Source: Sneathiella limimaris | GTDB lineage: Bacteria > Pseudomonadota > Alphaproteobacteria > Sneathiellales > Sneathiellaceae | Assembly: GCF_012932565.1 (NCBI RefSeq) | Contig: NZ_JABBYJ010000001.1 | Location: 2,728,001-2,792,000 of the forward strand | Length of the DNA: 64,000 bases | Reading direction: 5' to 3' | Shown: piece after piece, positions 3,899-46,012 of the stretch | How positions within the stretch are numbered: position 1 is the first letter of the stretch | Layout: each line of letters begins with the position of its first letter | Notes under the pieces: generated by a model | What the model was told of the DNA's origin: nothing | The model's input: the letters and a program-made list of their open reading frames with translations, nothing else | Databases searched by the model: none | Translations under genes and position numbers: made by a program

Positions 3899-6800
3899 AT
3901 GTGGCAGTTTTGGGTAGATCGCGGAGGCACCTTTACAGATATCGTTGCCAAGAAACCGGACGGATCCCTTCTCTCTCACAAACTGTTATCGGAAAATCCG
4001 GAACAGTATAAGGATGCCGCCGTACAGGGCATTCGGGATATTCTTGAACTTCCAAAAGACGCGCCTATCCCCGAGCACACAGTCAGTTATGTGAAAATGG
4101 GAACTACCGTTGCCACCAATGCTCTCCTTGAGCGGGCTGGCGATCGGACCCTTTTTGTCACCACCAAGGGTTTTGGCAACGCACTTCGTATCGGTTACCA
4201 AAACCGACCAAAACTGTTTGCCCGGCATATTGTGTTGCCTGAACTTTTATATGAAAAGGTGATAGAAGCAGATGAGCGGTTAGATGCGCATGGTCAAGTC
4301 ATTACACCACTTGATCTTGAGGGATTACGCCCTGGACTTGAAGCTGCTTATAAAGATGGTATCCGGGCCATTGCAATTGCGTTCCTGCATGGATATCGCT
4401 ATCACGACCATGAAAAACAGGTTGCGGCCCTGGCCCGAGAAATTGGCTTCACACAGGTTTCCACCAGCCATGAAACCAGCCCCTTGATGAAATTGGTTAG
4501 CCGCGGGGATACGACCGTTGTCGACGCCTATCTATCCCCGATCCTCAGGCGCTACGTTAATCAAGTCGCAGAGGAGCTTGGAACTGGATCCAACAATGAC
4601 ACTCGGCTCATGTTCATGCAGTCAAATGGTGGATTAACGGACGCCACCCTGTTTCAAGGGAAAGACGCGATCCTGTCAGGCCCGGCTGGTGGTGTTGTCG
4701 GGATGACCCGCACGGCGGCGATGAGCGGTTACGAAAAACTGATCGGCTTTGACATGGGCGGAACGTCCACCGATGTCACTCATTATGACGGCGAATATGA
4801 GCGCAGCTTTGAAACGGTCGTCGCAGGAGTGCGCATGCGCGCACCTATGATGCATATTCATACCGTTGCAGCTGGTGGTGGCTCTCTGCTCACCTTTGAT
4901 GGGGCCCGTTACCGAGTTGGTCCTGAATCTGCTGGCGCCAATCCGGGCCCAACCAGTTATCGCCGAGGCGGACCGCTGGCAGTTACAGACTGCAACGTCA
5001 TGCTCGGGAAAATTCAACCTGAGTACTTTCCACATGTGTTTGGGCCGAATGCTGATGAGGCCTTGGACCGGGAAGCCGTCGTTCAAAAATTTACGGCTCT
5101 TGCCGAAGAAATTTCTGAAGCCACTGGCGATGCTTTACAAAGCGCTGAGGAAGTCGCAGAAGGCTTCCTTCGGATCGCTGTTGAAAATATGGCGAACGCC
5201 ATCAAGGAAATTTCTGTTCAGCGGGGCTATGATGTCACCACCTATACCCTGAATTGTTTCGGTGGCGCTGGCGGGCAACATGCCTGCCTGGTTGCAGATG
5301 CACTTGGCATGACCAAAGTCTTTCTGCATCCGTTTTCGGGTGTCCTTTCAGCCTACGGTATGGGCCTTGCCGACATTCGGGCGATGCGTGAGATCCAGGT
5401 TGAAAAGCCTTTTGAGGCGAATGCCGAAGACATCTGCAAGGAACTCTCCCTCCCCCTTGCGAAAGAGGCTTCCGCAGAAGTTCGTGAACAGGGTGTTGAC
5501 GAGGACAGCATTACCCACAGCTTCAAAGTTCATTTGAAGTATGAAGGCACAGATTCAGCGATGCTGGTCGATCTGGATACGCCCGCAGCCATGAAGGCCG
5601 CTTTTGAGGTGACACACAAACAGCGCTTTGGCTTTATTGCAGAAGATCGGGGTCTTATTATTGAGGCACTTTCGGTTGAAGCTATTGGCCTGACCGATAG
5701 TGTTGTAGATCCAGAGGAAGATATTAAAGAGCTGATTACCGAGCCTAAAGCCTTGGATCGAGTGCAGCTCTACACCTCCGGTCGCTGGCAGGACGTCGCC
5801 CTTTACGATCGCGACCAAATGGACTGCGGTCAAAAGATCAAAGGCCCAGCCATCATTATCGAGAAGACCGGTACAATTGTTGTTGAGACGGGATGGCAGG
5901 CAAGCCTGAACTCGCGCCGGCACTTGATACTGGATCGGGTTGAAGCCCGCCCTCAAACCGAAGCCATCGGTACAAAAGCAGATCCTGTTATGCTTGAGGT
6001 TTTCAATAACCTCTTTATGTCCATCGCCGAACAGATGGGCGCAACCCTTTCCAATACATCGCAATCCGTAAACATCAAGGAACGGCTCGACTTCTCCTGC
6101 GCAATTTTTGATACAGATGGCAACCTCGTTGCCAATGCCCCGCATATGCCTGTGCATCTAGGTTCCATGGGTGAAAGCATCAAAGTCGTCATTAGGGAAA
6201 ATGCAGGAAAGATGCAGCCCGGTGATTTTTACGCCCTGAACGCCCCCTATAATGGTGGCACTCATTTGCCAGACGTGACGGTGATCTCCCCGGTTTTTGA
6301 TGATGCTGGCGAAGAGATCATTTTCTATGTCGGCTCTCGTGGGCATCATGCAGATATTGGCGGTAGAACACCTGGCTCCTCTCCGCCAGATAGCACTCAC
6401 ATCGAAGAAGAAGGTGTGCTTATTGACAACTTCCTGCTGGCACGTGGTGGTCATTTCAGAGACCAAAAAACGCGGGAGATGCTATCCAGCGGCAAATATC
6501 CGTGCCGGAATGTGGATCAGAATATCGCCGATCTCACGGCCCAGATCGCAGCCAATGAAACGGGCATTCGCGAACTTCGGAAAATGATTGATCATTTCGG
6601 GATCGATGTGGTCTCGGCCTATATGGGACATGTTCAGGACAACGCAGAAGAAACTGTGCGCCGCGTTCTGGATGTCTTGAAAGACGGTGCCTTTGAATAT
6701 GAACTGGATACCGGTGCCAAAATCAAAGTCGCGATCACAGTTGATAAAGAAAATCGAAGCGCAACGGTTGATTTCACGGGAACTTCACCGCAGGACAAAG

Positions 6801-7507
6801 GCAATTACAACGCGCCTAAAGCGATCAGCAAGGCAGCTGTCCTTTATGTCTTCAGAACGCTGGTCGACGATGAAATTCCGCTGAATGAAGGTTGCTTGAA
6901 ACCGATCAATATCATTGTGCCCGAAGGTTCAATGCTGGACCCTGTTTATCCAGCTGCCGTCATTGCGGGAAATACGGAAGTCTCCCAATGTGTCACGGAT
7001 TGCCTCTATGGCGCTCTTGGCGTTCTGGCATCTGCTCAGGGCACAATGAACAACTTCCTGTATGGCAATGACAAGCGGCAGAATTACGAAACCATTTGCG
7101 GCGGCACTGGTGCTGGCCCGGATCACCCCGGAACCAGTGCTGTTCATAGTCATATGACAAATACCCGCATGACAGACCCTGAAGTCTTGGAATGGCGTTT
7201 TCCTGTTCGGGTTGAAGAATTTTCCATCCGGCGCGGATCTGGCGGCGAAGGAAAATTCAAGGGGGGTGACGGTGCAATTCGCCGCATGCGGTTCATGGAA
7301 CCCATGACAGTCACGTTCCTATCGCTTCACAGGAATACTGATCCCTATGGACTTGCAGGCGGAAGCCCCGGCGCTCGTGGGGAGAATTCTGTCATCCGTA
7401 AAGATGGAACGGTTGAAATTCTAAAAGGGAACGATGAGACGGAAGTCGGTATTGATGACGTCATTTTGATCAAGACACCAGGTGGCGGCGGATACGGCAA
7501 AGCCTAG
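3899..7507 (+). CDS. Fused hydantoinase A/B - ATP-dependent 5-oxoprolinase
   Basis: A 1202-residue protein with both halves of the hydantoinase/oxoprolinase family. The N-terminal HyuA part shows an ASKHA-type phosphate loop near the start ([10 protein letters not shown], residues 7-16), a second one at about residues 283-293 ([11 protein letters not shown]) and a glycine loop [11 protein letters not shown] at about 321. The HyuB part starts at about residue 696 ([10 protein letters not shown]) and contains [10 protein letters not shown]. Fused proteins of about 1200-1290 residues are typical of 5-oxoprolinase, which opens 5-oxoproline to glutamate with ATP; N-methylhydantoinase is the alternative. 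GGGAG precedes the ATG. It diverges from a TRAP operon that may supply the substrate. Confidence 0.9.
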
Positions 7508-9100: not shown

Positions 9101-9334
9101 TATTATTGTTCCTCTTAACGGGAGTTTTTAGTGTCATGCACTGCCACAAGCGGCGCATTATGAGACGTGAATATAGTTCTGCCAACAGAAAATTTGGAAA
9201 ATTTTCCCATCACCAAAGCTCATCATGTCATTCTGAGAACTCAGCCCAATTATATTTGACTTCAAACGAACTATCAATTGCCACATAGCTATTTTCCACC
9301 TACCTTTGCCACTCAACTGAGAGAAGGCTTTTTA

Positions 9335-10534
9335 ATGATAAAACGTGTGTTGCTGACGGGAGTGTTGCTCATTTTGGCTCCGGTGGTCTCCTGGGCATTT
9401 GATGAAACAAATCGCCCCGCAGAACTAATTTCAACAATGTCACCGAGCCCATTGAAGGAAAAACTGAAATCCTGTCAGGGGCAACCCTTGAAAAAGTCAA
9501 ACTTTTCGATCTCTCACCGCGGCGCGCCACTTGGATATCCAGAACATACACAAGCCGGCTATGAAGCTGCGGCAAAAATGGGAGCTGGAATTCTGGAGTG
9601 TGATGTCACCTTTACCAAGGATAAGGAGCTTGTGTGCCGGCATTCCCAAAATGACCTTCACTACACCACGAATATTGTGACTACGCCCCTCGCCGAAAAA
9701 TGTAGCACACCGTTCACTCCGGCTGACGGTCAAAAAGCGACTGCAGAGTGCCTAACGAGTGACATAACTCTTGCAGAATTCAAAAGCTTAAAAGGAAAGA
9801 TGGAAGGTGCCAACAAGAAGGCTGAAACACCCGCAGAGTATTTGAATGGAACACCCAAATGGCGGAAAAACCTTGGAAAACCCGAAGGAGAGGAATTGCT
9901 CAGCCACAAAGAAAGTATTGCGCTTTTCAAATCCTTGGGCGTGAAGTTTACTCCTGAGCTCAAAGCACCAAAAGTTTCCATGCCTTATGAAGGTATGACG
10001 CAACAAATGTATGCACAGAAACTCATCGATGAATATAAGGCTGCGAATATTGACCCCTCAGATGTTTGGCCGCAATCTTTCAATCTGGACGATATTCTTT
10101 ACTGGATTGAAAACGAACCCGAGTTTGGCAAACAGGCTGTCTATCTGGACGGACGGTATCGCCAGGGATTGAATACAAGTGATCCAAATAGTTTTTCACC
10201 GACAATGGAAGAGTTAAAAACTGCTGGGGTCAATTATCTAGCGCCCCCTCTTTGGATGCTGGTCTCAGAAGACGACGGTAAGATTGTGCCGTCTGCCTAT
10301 GCAATAGCAGCAAAAGAGGCAGGTTTGAAGCTGATCGCCTGGACTTTGGAACGAAGTGGCCCTTTAAACAAAGGTGGGGGTTGGTATTACAAATCCATTA
10401 AATCCGTTGTTGAAAAAGATGGAGACATGCTTGAGCTTCTCCATGTCCTCCATAACGATATCGGCGTGTCCGGTGTCTTTTCTGACTGGCCAGCCACAAC
10501 CACCTTTTATGCCAACTGCTTTAACCTAAATTAA
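9335..10534 (+). CDS. Secreted glycerophosphodiester phosphodiesterase family protein
   Basis: A 399-residue protein with a signal peptide ending near residue 21 ([11 protein letters not shown]). The start at ATG 9335 has GAGAGAAGG upstream; the longer frame from 9278 adds 19 residues that spoil the signal. The GDPD active-site pattern is present: HRG at residues 61-63, E70, the ECD pair at 88-90 and H103. The family hydrolyses glycerophosphodiesters to glycerol-3-phosphate and an alcohol such as choline or ethanolamine. An insert with paired cysteines (about residues 120-135) is larger than in the E. coli UgpQ type and recalls the longer GlpQ form. It lies just before a lipid-synthesis operon that may use the released head groups. 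Confidence 0.87.
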
Positions 10535-10598
10535 CGTCCTATTTGTACAGTGCATAAGCAAACCATAATGCGCGTTCAAATATGTTGCCTATTCAACC

Positions 10599-10623
10599 AA
10601 TTTGCGGCATAGTTCGGCAAATT
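10599..10623. promoter_or_regulatory. Inverted repeat upstream of the desaturase operon
   Basis: The arms AATTTGC and GCAAATT (7 bp, 11-nt spacer) lie in the 140-bp gap between the GDPD stop and the desaturase start. No T-run follows, so an operator is more likely than a terminator. Confidence 0.35.
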
Positions 10624-10674
10624 TTAGGGGTAAGAAAAATACGATATATTAATGACGAAAACGGGACCGGAAAC

Positions 10675-11781
10675 ATGGTCCCTTCGCCACAGGATGTGAG
10701 CGACAAACCAACACAGGTCTTCACCCATACAGTTGCGAGGCCCCGCACGCTAAAAGAAGCCTTGGCCGTTGTCAGGCCTTATGCCGTTTCCAGTAACCTA
10801 AGAGCCTGGTTTCAGGTCCTGACGGCTTCGTTGCTGTTTGCTGCCCTGTTGGGATTTATGCTGTATCTTGGTCTTGAGCATTATGGTTGGGTCTTACTGC
10901 TTTCCATTCCGCTGGGACTGACTATGGTTCGCCTATTCACACTTCAGCATGACTGCGGGCATGGAAGTCTGTTCACCAACAGAAAACTGAATGATGCCGT
11001 TGGCAGTGTTTTTGCGTTATTAACAGTTACGCCATATCAATATTGGCGCGCTGCTCACGCGATCCACCATGCGACAACTGGAAATCTGGATAAGCGTGGA
11101 ACTGGTGATATTGAAACCAAGACGATAGAGGAATACCAAACCCTCCCTTTGAGAGAGAAAATCTTTTATCGCCTGATCCGAAATCCGTTCTTCTTATTTG
11201 GTATTGGTGGTTTTTTACATTTTGCCATCAAACAGCGCTTCCCAATTCTGCACAATAATCTGAACCCGATCTACCTTAAGAGCGTTCATCGCACCAATGC
11301 CGTTATGGTTTTAGCCCTGATCGGGATCCATTTTACTTATGGTATTGGCCCATTCCTTGCGGTTTTTCTCCCCGCAATTTGGATTGCATCTGTCATCGGC
11401 TTCTGGCTTTTCTACGTTCAGCATTCCTATCATGATGCCTACTGGCAACGTCAGAAGAACTGGGATTATCTCAAATCTGCATTTGATGGTAGCACTCTGG
11501 TCAATCTACCACCTGTGTTGAGGTGGATTTCTGCTGATATCGGCATACACCATATCCATCACCTGTTACCCTCTATTCCCAATTATAAATTAAGGGCATG
11601 CATGATAGAGAACCCCCATCTCTGCACGCCCCGCGAAATGAAACTGAAAGAGGCCATCACCTGTACACGTCTCGCCATTTGGGATGAAGTTAACGAACAA
11701 CTGATCCCCTTCAGTGAAATGAAAGAAAGACTAAAGGCAAATCGGGCTAATGAACCAGCCCTGCAAAACGCCGCGGAGTAG
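10675..11781 (+). CDS. Membrane fatty acid desaturase
   Basis: A 368-residue membrane protein of the di-iron fatty acid desaturase/hydroxylase superfamily. All three histidine boxes are visible: HDCGH at residues 92-96, HAIHH at 128-132 and HHIHHLLP at about 290-297, with hydrophobic spans at about 48-65, 72-88 and 200-250. The box pattern is that of acyl-lipid omega-6/delta-12-type enzymes. I prefer ATG 10675, with GGGA/CGGAAA upstream, over 10582. It is two bases from the next gene, so it leads a three-gene operon. The chain position it modifies is not readable. Confidence 0.88.
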   Translation: MVPSPQDVSDKPTQVFTHTVARPRTLKEALAVVRPYAVSSNLRAWFQVLTASLLFAALLGFMLYLGLEHYGWVLLLSIPLGLTMVRLFTLQHDCGHGSLFTNRKLNDAVGSVFALLTVTPYQYWRAAHAIHHATTGNLDKRGTGDIETKTIEEYQTLPLREKIFYRLIRNPFFLFGIGGFLHFAIKQRFPILHNNLNPIYLKSVHRTNAVMVLALIGIHFTYGIGPFLAVFLPAIWIASVIGFWLFYVQHSYHDAYWQRQKNWDYLKSAFDGSTLVNLPPVLRWISADIGIHHIHHLLPSIPNYKLRACMIENPHLCTPREMKLKEAITCTRLAIWDEVNEQLIPFSEMKERLKANRANEPALQNAAE

Positions 11782-11783
11782 AA

Positions 11784-12986
11784 ATGGCCGCAAGAGAGAT
11801 TATCGACAGTGTTGCCGCGTCGGAAATGTTCAGGGGGCTTCCGACGGAACTGATTGAAAGCAGTTTGCCGCATTTCAAAATCTCTCGTATCGAAAAAGGC
11901 CAAATCATTTTGCGGGAGGGAACTACCAACAGCAAAATACACATCATTCACACTGGTGAAGCCGAAGTCCTGAAAAGTCTGGAAAAAGAAAGTGGCGACA
12001 ATGACAATTCGTTTGTCATTGCAACATTACAGCCGGGTGAAGAATTTGGTGAACTCACAGCAATAGAAGGTACGGTGGCATCTGCAACGATCAGAGCATC
12101 GAAGCCGATGGAACTGATCACCCTTGATCTGCGACAGCAGAATGAAGATCAAAACCTCAAGGAGCTTTATGATCAAATTCAGGTAAATTTGATCCGGAGA
12201 ATAGCCAGCAAACTCCGCGATACCAGCGAACGTAAAGTTGCCCTGATGGAACAGGAATCCAAAAGACGTCGGGAACAGGCGGTCGCTGGCCGATTTATCA
12301 TTACCATTCTGTCACTGGTTGCCTGTTACACCCTTGCGCTTCGGGCAATAATGGATCTTGGAACCTATGGTTCTTGGCTACAGGTATACTATTCCCCGCT
12401 GATCATAGTTGCGTTCATGGGCGCCATGCTGTTTATGATGGCCAGAAGTGAAATGCCCTTTGAGGCGTTTGGCCTGACATTAAAAGGGTGGAAGCCTGCC
12501 ATTAAGGATGCAGTACTTTTCTCCATTCCATTTTGCGCGTTTATTACGTTTCTAAAATGGGAGTATATCGTTCTCTATCCCGATCCTGGTGGGATGACCG
12601 TCTTTACGCTGACAGAAATGTTCTCCAGCTTCACACCTGGGGGCGATTTTAGCTGGATGGCTTATCTAACGTTTTTCCTGGCCTACGTATTATTGTGTCC
12701 AGTGCAGGAACTGATCGCTCGATGTGGTGTCCAAGCCCCCTTATCAATCCTGCTTCAGGGAAGCCATGTTCAGCGGCATTTTCTAGCAATATTAGTCTCT
12801 AACCTTCTGTATTCCGCATCCCATTCACATCTTAATCTGGGTTTTGCCTTTATAACCTTTGTTCCAGGCTTGTTTTGGGGCTGGCTGTTTATGCGCCATA
12901 AATCACTCATTGGTGTCTCCGTCTCTCATGCTATCGTTGGCGGATATGCACTGTTTGCACTTGGAATTGAAGAATTTCTGAAATGA
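11784..12986 (+). CDS. Cyclic-nucleotide-binding domain fused to a CPBP membrane domain
   Basis: A 400-residue fusion. Residues 1-135 are a CRP-type cyclic-nucleotide-binding domain with the phosphate cassette FGELTAIEG (88-96); the arginine that contacts the cyclic phosphate in CRP appears replaced (VASATIRA, 98-105). A charged helix at about 140-168 leads into roughly seven membrane segments. The C-terminal part resembles CPBP/CAAX intramembrane proteases: QELIAR (308-313), SASHSH (344-349) and SHAIVGG (381-387). Against EExxxR and HxxxN, the first glutamate is Q308 and the asparagine is G386, so protease activity is doubtful. It shares a 4-base ATGA overlap with the next gene. Confidence 0.75.
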   Translation: MAAREIIDSVAASEMFRGLPTELIESSLPHFKISRIEKGQIILREGTTNSKIHIIHTGEAEVLKSLEKESGDNDNSFVIATLQPGEEFGELTAIEGTVASATIRASKPMELITLDLRQQNEDQNLKELYDQIQVNLIRRIASKLRDTSERKVALMEQESKRRREQAVAGRFIITILSLVACYTLALRAIMDLGTYGSWLQVYYSPLIIVAFMGAMLFMMARSEMPFEAFGLTLKGWKPAIKDAVLFSIPFCAFITFLKWEYIVLYPDPGGMTVFTLTEMFSSFTPGGDFSWMAYLTFFLAYVLLCPVQELIARCGVQAPLSILLQGSHVQRHFLAILVSNLLYSASHSHLNLGFAFITFVPGLFWGWLFMRHKSLIGVSVSHAIVGGYALFALGIEEFLK

Positions 12987-14437
12987 AAAAGAATTTTGAA
13001 AGTCAGGATTTCTCAGCGACTGCGCCAACTTTGCGAAAGTGGGCCACTGACCCAATCCTCAATCTCATTCCAGAAACGGTCTCACCTAATGCCTTAACTC
13101 TGTTCGGTGGAATCTGCGCAGGCATTACTGCATTTCTCCTTTGGTTTTCCAAAAGCCTGATCGACCCGACAACATCAATAGGCAAGACTTTACTTGTTCT
13201 TGGAGCGTTGCTTCTCGTCGTTTACGCAATTTGCGATCAGCTTGATGGCTTGCAAGCCCGGCGACTTAAACGGGGTGGCCCTGCAGGAGACTTTCTAGAT
13301 CACTGGGTCGATGCATTTCTTGCGAACATCACCCCAATTGCCCTGATGTATATGATGGTCTATCCATTGGAACAAATGGTCATCATGAGCCTTGTCGTAA
13401 CTTTTGCATTTTGGACAAATAACTGGGAAACCCGCAACAATCACGCGCGGAAACTCCCCTTTCTTGGTGGCCTTGAATTTATTTGGGTGGGTGTAGTCTG
13501 CCTGATCGTCACGGCCATTTGGGGATACGAAATCTGGGATGAAACGATCTTCGAAGTGGAGCTGCGGCACCTTTCTTACGCAGTGGTTATCTCAGTTCTT
13601 AGTTTTTCTATTTTCAAAAATTGCGTACGAGCACGTGACCACTTAAAAGACCTCCTGACCCCTGCCCTAAGCCTTGGAACCATCTCAATTTGGCTCATTT
13701 ATAGTCATCATCAGGGCGCGCTAACCTGGAACACCCAATCTCTCGCATTTTTAACGCTGGCTTTAATGGGTGTGAGACATACAGGTGATCTGATGAGGGC
13801 TCTGTGGCTCAACAGCCGGATCAAAGATATCGAACCTCTGTTCGTCCTTCCGGGGATTTGCCTGGTCCTGATAGCGGTTCTTCAAGCTGATATCGACGTA
13901 CTGAGACAGCTGGAAACGCCAACCCTCATTGCGACAGCATTGCTGGTCATTTGGCTGACAGCTTTTCAGGCCATTCATACGTTTACTGTTTTAGTACACG
14001 GTTTAGGAACCGAAAAGGAAACTGCTGAAGGTCAACCTCCAAGTGTGCAACGCATTATGGTTGATATGTCCGCGACCCTATTACATCACGGTCATATTCG
14101 CCTCCTGAACCAGGCTAAAAAACTCGGCCACGTAGTAATTGGCTTAACTTCCGATACAGATCTCCAACGGGTTAAAGGGGTAGATGCAGAATTGAGTTTT
14201 GCCGAACGCAAAGAAATCCTATTGGCCTTGGAAGCCGTGGATGAAGTCGTTGAAACACCCTGGCTACTGACTGAGGAAGTTTTAAAGAAACATAATATCG
14301 ATTTGCTTGTTCACGGCGATGACAATCAAAACGATATCGATCCAGAGAGGCTTATCATCTTCCCAAGAACTGATGGCATTAGCAGCAGCACTATTAGAGA
14401 GCGAGCTGCCCGGAACCTGCAAGCAGAAAACGCTTAA
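12983..14437 (+). CDS. Fused CDP-alcohol phosphotransferase / cytidylyltransferase (Kennedy-pathway-like)
   Basis: A 484-residue fusion of two consecutive phospholipid-synthesis activities. The membrane part (about 1-342) has the full CDP-alcohol phosphotransferase motif: D88, G89, A92, R93, G102, D106 and D110. The arrangement NWET followed by FLGGLEF (147-165) recalls eukaryotic choline/ethanolamine phosphotransferases. The C-terminal part (about 355-478) is a nucleotidyltransferase with HHGH (368-371), HGDDNQNDID (444-453) and RTDGISSSTIR (462-472), as in CTP:phosphoethanolamine and glycerol-3-phosphate cytidylyltransferases. The likely role is to make a CDP-alcohol and pass it to diacylglycerol. 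The alcohol (ethanolamine, choline, other) is unknown. It is the last gene of the desaturase operon. Confidence 0.82.
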   Translation: MKKNFESQDFSATAPTLRKWATDPILNLIPETVSPNALTLFGGICAGITAFLLWFSKSLIDPTTSIGKTLLVLGALLLVVYAICDQLDGLQARRLKRGGPAGDFLDHWVDAFLANITPIALMYMMVYPLEQMVIMSLVVTFAFWTNNWETRNNHARKLPFLGGLEFIWVGVVCLIVTAIWGYEIWDETIFEVELRHLSYAVVISVLSFSIFKNCVRARDHLKDLLTPALSLGTISIWLIYSHHQGALTWNTQSLAFLTLALMGVRHTGDLMRALWLNSRIKDIEPLFVLPGICLVLIAVLQADIDVLRQLETPTLIATALLVIWLTAFQAIHTFTVLVHGLGTEKETAEGQPPSVQRIMVDMSATLLHHGHIRLLNQAKKLGHVVIGLTSDTDLQRVKGVDAELSFAERKEILLALEAVDEVVETPWLLTEEVLKKHNIDLLVHGDDNQNDIDPERLIIFPRTDGISSSTIRERAARNLQAENA

Positions 14438-45805: not shown

Positions 45806-45834
45806 TTGACATCGCAAGATCAGATGACTAAACA
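45806..45834 (+). promoter_or_regulatory. Probable promoter of the manganese-riboswitch transcript
   Basis: A TTGACA -35 box (45806-45811) is followed after 17 bases by TAAACA (45829-45834), just before the aptamer sequence at about 45838. Confidence 0.45.
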
Positions 45835-45837
45835 CGG

Positions 45838-46012
45838 ACATTCCGTTGGGGAGTAGCCTTCTGAGACACATCAGAACCTGTATCAACAGACTTGGCCAAG
45901 GCCATGGTGCAGGTGACCGGAAAACTTCGGTTTGGCAAGACCAATGGCGAGTACTGACCACTTCACGGGAAGTTGGCTGGTCAGTCCGTCATTGAATTTG
46001 CCAACTTCCCAA
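45838..46012 (+). promoter_or_regulatory. yybP-ykoY (manganese) riboswitch leader
   Basis: The aptamer part (about 45838-45926) has the yybP-ykoY hallmarks: GGGGAGTAGCC at 45848, the hairpin TTCTGA/TCAGAA, then TATCAACAGACTTGG corresponding to the TCAACATACT loop of E. coli mntP, ACCTG/CAGGT closing an arm, and TTCCG/CGGAA as the basal stem. This family binds Mn(II) and controls exporters. Downstream lie two mutually exclusive stems, ACTGACC/GGTCAGT (45953, 45979) and GGGAAGTTGG/CCAACTTCCC (45967, 46001), the second ending just before the ribosome site of the UPF0016 gene. Recognised by motif memory, not by a covariance search. Confidence 0.78.

Follow-up and report, generated by a model that had tools for sequence, protein, structure and literature searches.

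A rare bacterial fusion of a CPT/CEPT-like CDP-alcohol phosphotransferase with an HxGH cytidylyltransferase in Sneathiella limimaris

We analyzed a 64,000-nucleotide stretch of the Sneathiella limimaris genome (contig NZ_JABBYJ010000001.1, positions 2,728,001 to 2,792,000 of the forward strand; here called the window), and found at 12983-14437 (+ strand) an intact, rare gene fusion joining a CPT/CEPT-like CDP-alcohol phosphotransferase to an HxGH cytidylyltransferase. The enzyme classes are known and their arrangement is new; precedents are archaeal Af2299 and AfDIPP synthase, and LicCA with CPT in Treponema denticola. The product is probably a bifunctional enzyme that activates an amine head group with CTP and then transfers it to a membrane lipid. 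Aminoethylphosphonate (AEP) and phosphoethanolamine are the leading head groups, with choline and glycerol phosphate less likely.

The fusion gene and its motifs

The open reading frame begins with ATG, encodes 484 amino acids and has no internal stop. Its domains, motifs and gene context can be read directly, and its fold class from structure prediction. Pfam finds CDP-OH_P_transf at residues 34-141 (37.7 bits, cut-off 22) and CTP_transf_like (PF01467) at residues 367-452 (49.5 bits, cut-off 21). Residues 85-110 (13235-13312, + strand), DQLDGLQARRLKRGGPAGDFLDHWVD, keep all conserved residues of the CDP-alcohol phosphotransferase motif and carry the superfamily signature D-x2-D-G-x2-A-R-x8-G-x3-D-x3-D; as a degenerate DNA pattern the signature matches the window once (13244-13312), and it matches none of 100 shuffles. 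The C-terminal domain, residues 354-475 (14042-14407, + strand), belongs with the HxGH cytidylyltransferases by its above-cut-off family score and by its motifs, HxGH (HHGH, residues 368-371; 14084-14095, + strand) and RTxGISS, the latter within RTDGISSSTIR (residues 462-472; 14366-14398, + strand).

The original prediction, made from the letters alone, had named a CDP-alcohol phosphotransferase with complete motif and an HxGH cytidylyltransferase with RTDGISSSTIR, and both assignments are borne out; the outcome it had named as refuting, a C-terminal part matching no cytidylyltransferase model, did not occur, the Pfam match being above cut-off. Its proposal of two Kennedy-type steps on one chain is supported as domain architecture, which suggests the corresponding activity.

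The N-terminal transferase half

The N-terminal membrane domain, residues 1-341 (12983-14005, + strand), has ten predicted long helices. Searched against PDB sequences with an E limit of 1, residues 1-344 gave seven distinct matches: CPT1 or CEPT1 accounts for five (E 2.4e-11 to 4.1e-6), and Af2299-PIP synthase chimaeras for the remaining pair (E 0.0085 and 0.014). An AlphaFold2 model of the fusion (alignment of 33 sequences, mean pLDDT 76.9, pTM 0.56) places the helices at 35-54, 65-95, 100-124, 129-153, 163-180, 194-216, 218-243, 251-277, 284-301 and 312-341, with helices 8-10 partly of low confidence; helices 7-8 are less clear in a hydropathy scan. The predicted structure of this domain scores Z 24.1-24.9 against four CPT1/CEPT1 entries (alignments of 266-291 residues within 1-342), and 17.3, 16.2 and 13.6 against Af2299, AfDIPP synthase and PgsA1. 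The predicted likeness to eukaryotic CPT/EPT enzymes is thus upheld by both sequence matches and Z scores. Its NWE element (residues 147-149; 13421-13429, + strand) aligns, as foreseen, with TWE of CPT1 entries 8urt and 8ul9, which we take to be fungal, and with QWQ of frog CPT1 (8ero).

CPT1 carries an extended signature, G-E-x-x-D-H-x-x-D, whose Glu and His are reported to be missing from most bacterial enzymes (PMC10182977); in frog CPT1 these residues, Glu129 and His133, are proposed to help activate the diacylglycerol hydroxyl (PMC10182977). At the positions of this proposed catalytic pair the window protein has Asp103, replacing Glu, and His107, so that, as in class II of the family, a His follows the third Asp of the motif with an acidic partner four residues earlier. 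None of the four other CDP-OH_P family members of the host genome has this His. The ten helices of the model likewise agree with class II, and lipid-acceptor members of the family typically have three to four helices beyond the six of soluble-acceptor members (PMC4634129). Taken together, the PDB matches, the fold, the Asp/His pair and the ten helices suggest that the N-terminal half probably functions in the manner of CPT1/EPT1, with diacylglycerol or a related lipid as its substrate. Membership of the PssA/PgsA type was considered and rejected, since only CPT1/CEPT1 gave strong PDB sequence matches, in agreement with the structure comparison and the His pair. CPT1 has ten helices with N- and C-termini both cytosolic (PMC10182977), and by the same topology the soluble C-terminal domain of the fusion would sit on the CTP side.

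The C-terminal cytidylyltransferase half

PDB sequence matches of the C-terminal domain include human ECT (E 5.8e-19), TagD (1.1e-15), TarD (4.6e-12), Fom1 CyTase (1.2e-11) and Plasmodium CCT (3.9e-12). In a tree of 21 rows, the window protein falls outside both a TagD/TarD group of nine rows (100/98) and a group of six rows fused to PepM (98/94). Its sole partner is an unfused 157-aa protein of genome G129 (99/96, 56% identity), with which it forms a clade of its own; deeper forks are weak (69/68). Among 18 scanned loci (L029-L045, L048), the nine that passed a motif filter were entered in this tree and the other nine left out, and it omits the PepM-fused G771 protein, whose motif is not HxGH.

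In Plasmodium CCT (PfCCT), Val625, Lys663 and His709 coordinate phosphate and Trp692 makes contact with the ammonium; Asp623 is given as one of the ligand-accommodating residues (PMC6060094). The window protein has Ser, Lys398, His444, Trp427 and Asp361 at these respective positions, and so keeps all of the choline/ethanolamine-phosphate cytidylyltransferase residues Asp623, Lys663, Trp/Tyr692 and His709 (PfCCT numbering); at the Tyr714 position it has Gln. Asp occupies the 623 position in four of the 21 rows (PfCCT, ECT domain 1, G129 and the window protein), and Tyr or Phe in all nine TagD-clade rows. The 709 position is His in all 12 non-TagD rows and Met or Ile in all nine of the TagD clade. 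On our own reading Asp623 faces the head group's positive charge, and this Asp/His pattern favours an amine-bearing head group over glycerol phosphate. A TagD orthologue was rejected as an identity for the domain, in view of its TIGR01518 score below cut-off, its place outside the 100/98 clade, and its lack of the clade's residues at the 623 and 709 positions. CpgD of Caulobacter was also considered; it has been likened to an inositol-1-phosphate cytidylyltransferase (PMC12275187).

Some related proteins are recorded here for their own sake. Near the unfused G129 cytidylyltransferase gene is one for a 1003-aa protein combining a YidC-like domain (60KD_IMP) with a sulfatase domain (L023 4583-7594, - strand). 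The EamA gene beside the same homologue scores 83 bits with the phosphonate-associated model TIGR03340 (cut-off 288), and its product is 30% identical to an EamA protein beside the host AEP cluster described below; EamA proteins are many, and neither EamA observation was used as evidence. Congener G004 encodes a protein (L004 1423-2541, - strand) whose N-terminus, judged by eye, is phosphatase-like and whose fused HxGH cytidylyltransferase part has PRTDGISSSKI at its end.

Relatives of the transferase half and their AEP genes

The closest relative found for the N-terminal domain, at locus L061 of genome G764, is unfused and 26% identical over residues 6-343. Its gene directly follows one for AEP aminotransferase, and on its other side lie genes for phosphonopyruvate decarboxylase and for phosphoenolpyruvate (PEP) mutase with an HxGH cytidylyltransferase; the aminotransferase, decarboxylase and PEP mutase families all score above NCBIfam cut-offs. 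A second CPT-like copy in G765 adjoins an aminotransferase gene, and its contig also carries PEP mutase some 4 kb away. The CPT-like gene of G933 adjoins PEP mutase, decarboxylase and aminotransferase genes, and that of G969 adjoins an aminotransferase gene, the PEP mutases of that genome being on other contigs. CPT-like genes therefore stand beside AEP biosynthesis genes in these four genomes; none were found near the first G765 copy or the remaining CPT-like loci in the flanking DNA examined, which was often short.

We also counted PEP mutase genes. They score above cut-off in all seven non-spirochaete genomes with a CPT-like gene, in one of eight spirochaete genomes with one, and in none of 20 control genomes of G764's phylum (one scored below cut-off); none was found in G129. 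The controls are the first 20 listed genomes, from one phylum, without a CPT-like match at 1e-10. Fisher tests give 1.1e-6 (7/7 vs 0/20), 2.7e-4 (8/15 vs 0/20) and, when restricted to the four genomes from the phylum of the controls, 9.4e-5, values to be read in light of the sample: it takes in part of the CPT-like genomes, these are related, genomes G774-G776 seem to lie outside the controls' phylum, two of the seven carry no phylum label, and PEP mutase in G764, G771 and G933 had been seen before the count. The relatives of the transferase half make AEP a candidate head group, one absent from the options listed in the original prediction, which had left the head group open. A spirochaete PEP mutase (L111 5557-6948, - strand) has a fused cytidylyltransferase-like part with HPGI in place of HxGH.

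The N-terminal domain pairs with the bacterial L061 protein in two trees (91/80, and 85/81 in the repeat). The first comprised the window protein, two fragments of CPT1, 27 hand-picked locus rows (two of them second copies), a single host row and three rows of the short type; for the repeat, seven of the 34 rows were dropped. Both partners are long branches, and the tool warns that such joins may be false. The next group to the pair is spirochaete CPT-like genes (90/95). The L061 protein also has Asp with His at the acidic/His pair, and the other bacterial CPT-like rows have Glu with His. The highest plain identity of the domain in the tree sets is to a eukaryotic fragment (25%; 28% in the repeat). 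Recent acquisition from a eukaryote was considered and appears less likely, given the pairing with L061 in two trees and an ordinary base composition; the long branches and the eukaryotic top identity urge caution on this point.

Lipid and phosphonate genes of the host

The host genome has five CDP-OH_P matches, including PssA adjoining Psd, so phosphatidylethanolamine (PE) is expected by the usual route without dependence on the fusion gene. The remark that bacteria usually make PE or phosphatidylcholine (PC) by other routes needs qualifying, since T. denticola has a bacterial Kennedy-type route with LicCA and CPT (PMC8590670). Host contig C2 (L133, 107000-126000) carries AEP transporter genes of the phnS2 and PhnU2 types together with PbfA and PhnW, all scoring above cut-off, the PhnW gene sitting in this AEP import and breakdown cluster. 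The transporter genes indicate that AEP can probably enter the cell.

Distribution of the fusion

Full-protein searches covered 60 relatives (E 1e-3), 385 genomes of the class (1e-12), 398 of the phylum (1e-9), 195 of G764's phylum (1e-10) and 13 chosen genomes (1e-5); the sets overlap, the first three include the host's own genome, and the E limits differ. Among the matches listed from these sets there is no full-length fusion outside the host, the others covering one half or part of the protein. A pattern scan of the genome_contigs collection for the CDP-alcohol phosphotransferase motif gave 42 loci, 40 with the motif in frame, and HxGH occurs in the same frame in none of the 37 in-frame loci with a visible 3' end; the pattern is strict, so that diverged fusions could escape it, and about half of its loci encode shorter, non-CPT proteins. 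A plain protein scan of the same collection returned 11 stretches, none a relative. Most of the best 40 of 52 plasmid matches are annotated tagD, and the N-terminal domain by itself has no match in plasmids. The full protein matched 25 phage records (the 10 matches listed are all to the C-terminal domain only), and viral_contigs yielded one match to that domain in one search and none in two others.

Gene neighborhood

The fusion is the last of four + strand genes in a row. The first encodes a glycerophosphodiester phosphodiesterase family protein (9278-10534; Pfam GDPD above cut-off), the second a fatty acid desaturase (10582-11781; Pfam above cut-off, and among NCBIfam models DesA scores highest, 268.7 bits against a cut-off of 500), and the third a 400-aa membrane protein with cNMP-binding and Rce1-like (CPBP) domain matches (11784-12986), whose stop overlaps the start codon of the fusion (ATGA). 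The base composition of the fusion gene resembles that of its surroundings. At the matching locus of congener G006, the GDPD gene (74%, cut by the contig end) is followed by three other ORFs and the desaturase gene (61%); immediately after the latter come LysR (50%), GST (46%) and one more gene common to both genomes (84%). This locus lacks the membrane protein and fusion genes, which therefore look like an accessory unit, gained in the host or lost in G006. A relative of the membrane protein was found in one of 39 other genomes searched (G011), where a GDPD-like gene follows. Elsewhere in the window are a manganese (yybP-ykoY) riboswitch (45831-45933, + strand; 52.1 bits, gathering score 45) and a gene (3899-7507, + strand) for a 1202-aa protein with both hydantoinase A and B domains.

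Proposed activity and alternatives

In the reaction scheme that we favour, the C-terminal domain, on the cytosolic side, would combine CTP with a small amine-bearing phosphate or phosphonate to give CDP-ethanolamine or CMP-aminoethylphosphonate (CDP-choline less likely). The ten-helix N-terminal domain would then move the head group from the CMP conjugate to diacylglycerol, releasing CMP, with Asp103 and His107 abstracting the proton of the lipid hydroxyl in the way suggested for CPT1. The product would be PE or its C-P analogue (AEP phosphonolipid), made beside the PE expected from PssA and Psd. We infer the activity, the amine head group, the diacylglycerol acceptor and the coupling of the two steps from the comparisons above. 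A more specific form, which we put forward tentatively, is a salvage phosphonolipid synthase: AEP imported from the environment would be activated with CTP and put straight onto diacylglycerol, giving C-P lipids without PEP mutase.

Several observations weigh against this scheme. No PEP mutase was detected in the host (no TIGR02320 match at E up to 1e-3); AEP phosphonolipid biosynthesis from PEP calls for this enzyme, although the salvage form would not need it. No Choline_kinase-family gene was found in the host to supply phosphoethanolamine or phosphocholine (the model matches in five of 14 control genomes). PEP mutase in only one of the eight spirochaete genomes argues against an AEP role for the CPT-like family as a whole, and fits the known use of CDP-choline in spirochaetes. 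In the transferase half, pLDDT is below 50 at 251-254, 259-305 and 332-353, low values that affect TM8-9, the last part of TM10 and the linker. CPT1 holds the ammonium of choline with Glu43, Trp50 and Phe186 (PMC10182977); in alignments Glu43 and Phe186 pair with Ala14 and Leu158 of the window protein, and the pairing of Trp50 is ambiguous. In the other half, structure scores are tied between ECT (13.4), TarD (13.2) and CCT (13.0), the best NCBIfam model is TagD-type TIGR01518 (59.9 bits, cut-off 165.4, whole fusion scanned), Thr stands in the window and G129 proteins at the PfCCT 627 position where the other 19 rows have Asp, and the unfused G129 homologue lies two genes from a Glyphos_transf (CDP-glycerol-type) gene.

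Among other explanations, a one-chain route to ordinary PE or PC from scavenged head groups, with no phosphonate role, overlaps with the scheme that we favour and seems to us possible rather than probable. It fits the CPT/CEPT-type N-terminal domain and the CCT/ECT-like residues of the C-terminal domain, and for PC it has the T. denticola precedent (PMC8590670), but the host already has PssA and Psd, the Choline_kinase result counts against it as well, and the choline-ammonium residues of CPT1 are only partly kept. Glycerol phosphate is an unlikely head group; in that case CDP-glycerol would come from the C-terminal domain, and the N-terminal domain would place the glycerophosphate on diacylglycerol or on some other lipid alcohol, so that a phosphatidylglycerol-like lipid would arise by a route of reversed polarity. 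Glycerol-3-phosphate is always present in cells, and the upstream GDPD protein could be a further source. The GDPD gene at the head of the row, the GDPD-like gene following the CPBP relative in congener G011, the TIGR01518 result, the tagD annotations among plasmid matches and the Glyphos_transf gene near the G129 homologue all agree with this route. Against it, the C-terminal domain lies outside the TagD clade without that clade's residues at the two separating positions, and the 74% identical GDPD is kept at the congener locus that lacks the fusion, so GDPD is not tied to the fusion.

The acceptor might instead be a surface polymer or a lipid other than diacylglycerol, in which case the fusion would modify an envelope component. 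The unfused G129 homologue is in an apparent surface-polymer cluster (MATE, EamA, Glyphos_transf and the YidC-sulfatase fusion), yet the N-terminal domain matches the ten-helix CPT1 fold and carries the proposed diacylglycerol-activating His, and we consider such an acceptor rather improbable. A degenerate or chance fusion without coupled activity would accord with its occurrence in a single genome of those searched, the long branch of the N-terminal domain, and Thr at the otherwise constant Asp position of the C-terminal domain. This we judge very improbable, as the CDP-alcohol motif, HxGH and RTDGISS are intact with no stop, the gene overlaps its upstream neighbor and has the base composition of its surroundings, and the unfused protein of G129 has Thr there too.

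Significance and comparison with known systems

The attachment of activated phosphonates to lipids or glycans in bacteria has been described as almost unknown (PMC6697681), and the CPT-like genes that neighbour AEP genes in four genomes offer a specific family of candidates for the step onto lipids. Because the fusion unites activation and transfer in a single protein that can be expressed, it allows the donor, the head group and the acceptor to be tested jointly. An AEP head group, if true, would link AEP uptake to membrane building; phosphoethanolamine, if true, would make the fusion a bacterial enzyme that runs the final two Kennedy steps on a single chain.

The eukaryotic CPT1/CEPT1 enzymes (8ero, 8ul9, 8gyw, 9uet) share with the fusion ten helices and the acidic and His signature, and are the best sequence and structure match of residues 1-341, but they lack a cytidylyltransferase domain, have Glu where the window protein has Asp103, and have Glu43 and Phe186, which it does not keep. 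Archaeal Af2299 and AfDIPP synthase, the next best folds, already combine these enzyme classes in a single polypeptide (PMC4634129), so such fusions as a kind are not new; they differ in that their cytidylyltransferase-like domain is N-terminal, with six helices in the transferase and non-lipid substrates (PMC4634129), whereas the window protein has its cytidylyltransferase C-terminal and ten helices, and is thus not of the Af2299 type. An established family with its exact domain order, the other outcome that the original prediction had named as refuting, was not found in the named databases or in open-licence papers. T. denticola offers a bacterial Kennedy-type route, the CDP-choline pathway, in which the kinase is fused to the cytidylyltransferase and a separate protein serves as transferase (PMC8590670); LicC-type enzymes, such as that of S. 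pneumoniae, are moreover MobA-like (PF12804) and not HxGH (PMC6697681). Fom1 CyTase, which acts on hydroxyethylphosphonate (PMC6697681), and the cytidylyltransferases fused to PEP mutase resemble the C-terminal domain in their HxGH fold and in His at the PfCCT 709 position; they form a separate clade (98/94), are fused to PEP mutase, and have Gly, Ala or Pro at the Asp623 position. The L061 protein comes closest to the transferase half, sharing even Asp in the acidic/His pair, and although it lacks the C-terminal domain, a cytidylyltransferase fused to PEP mutase is encoded two genes away.

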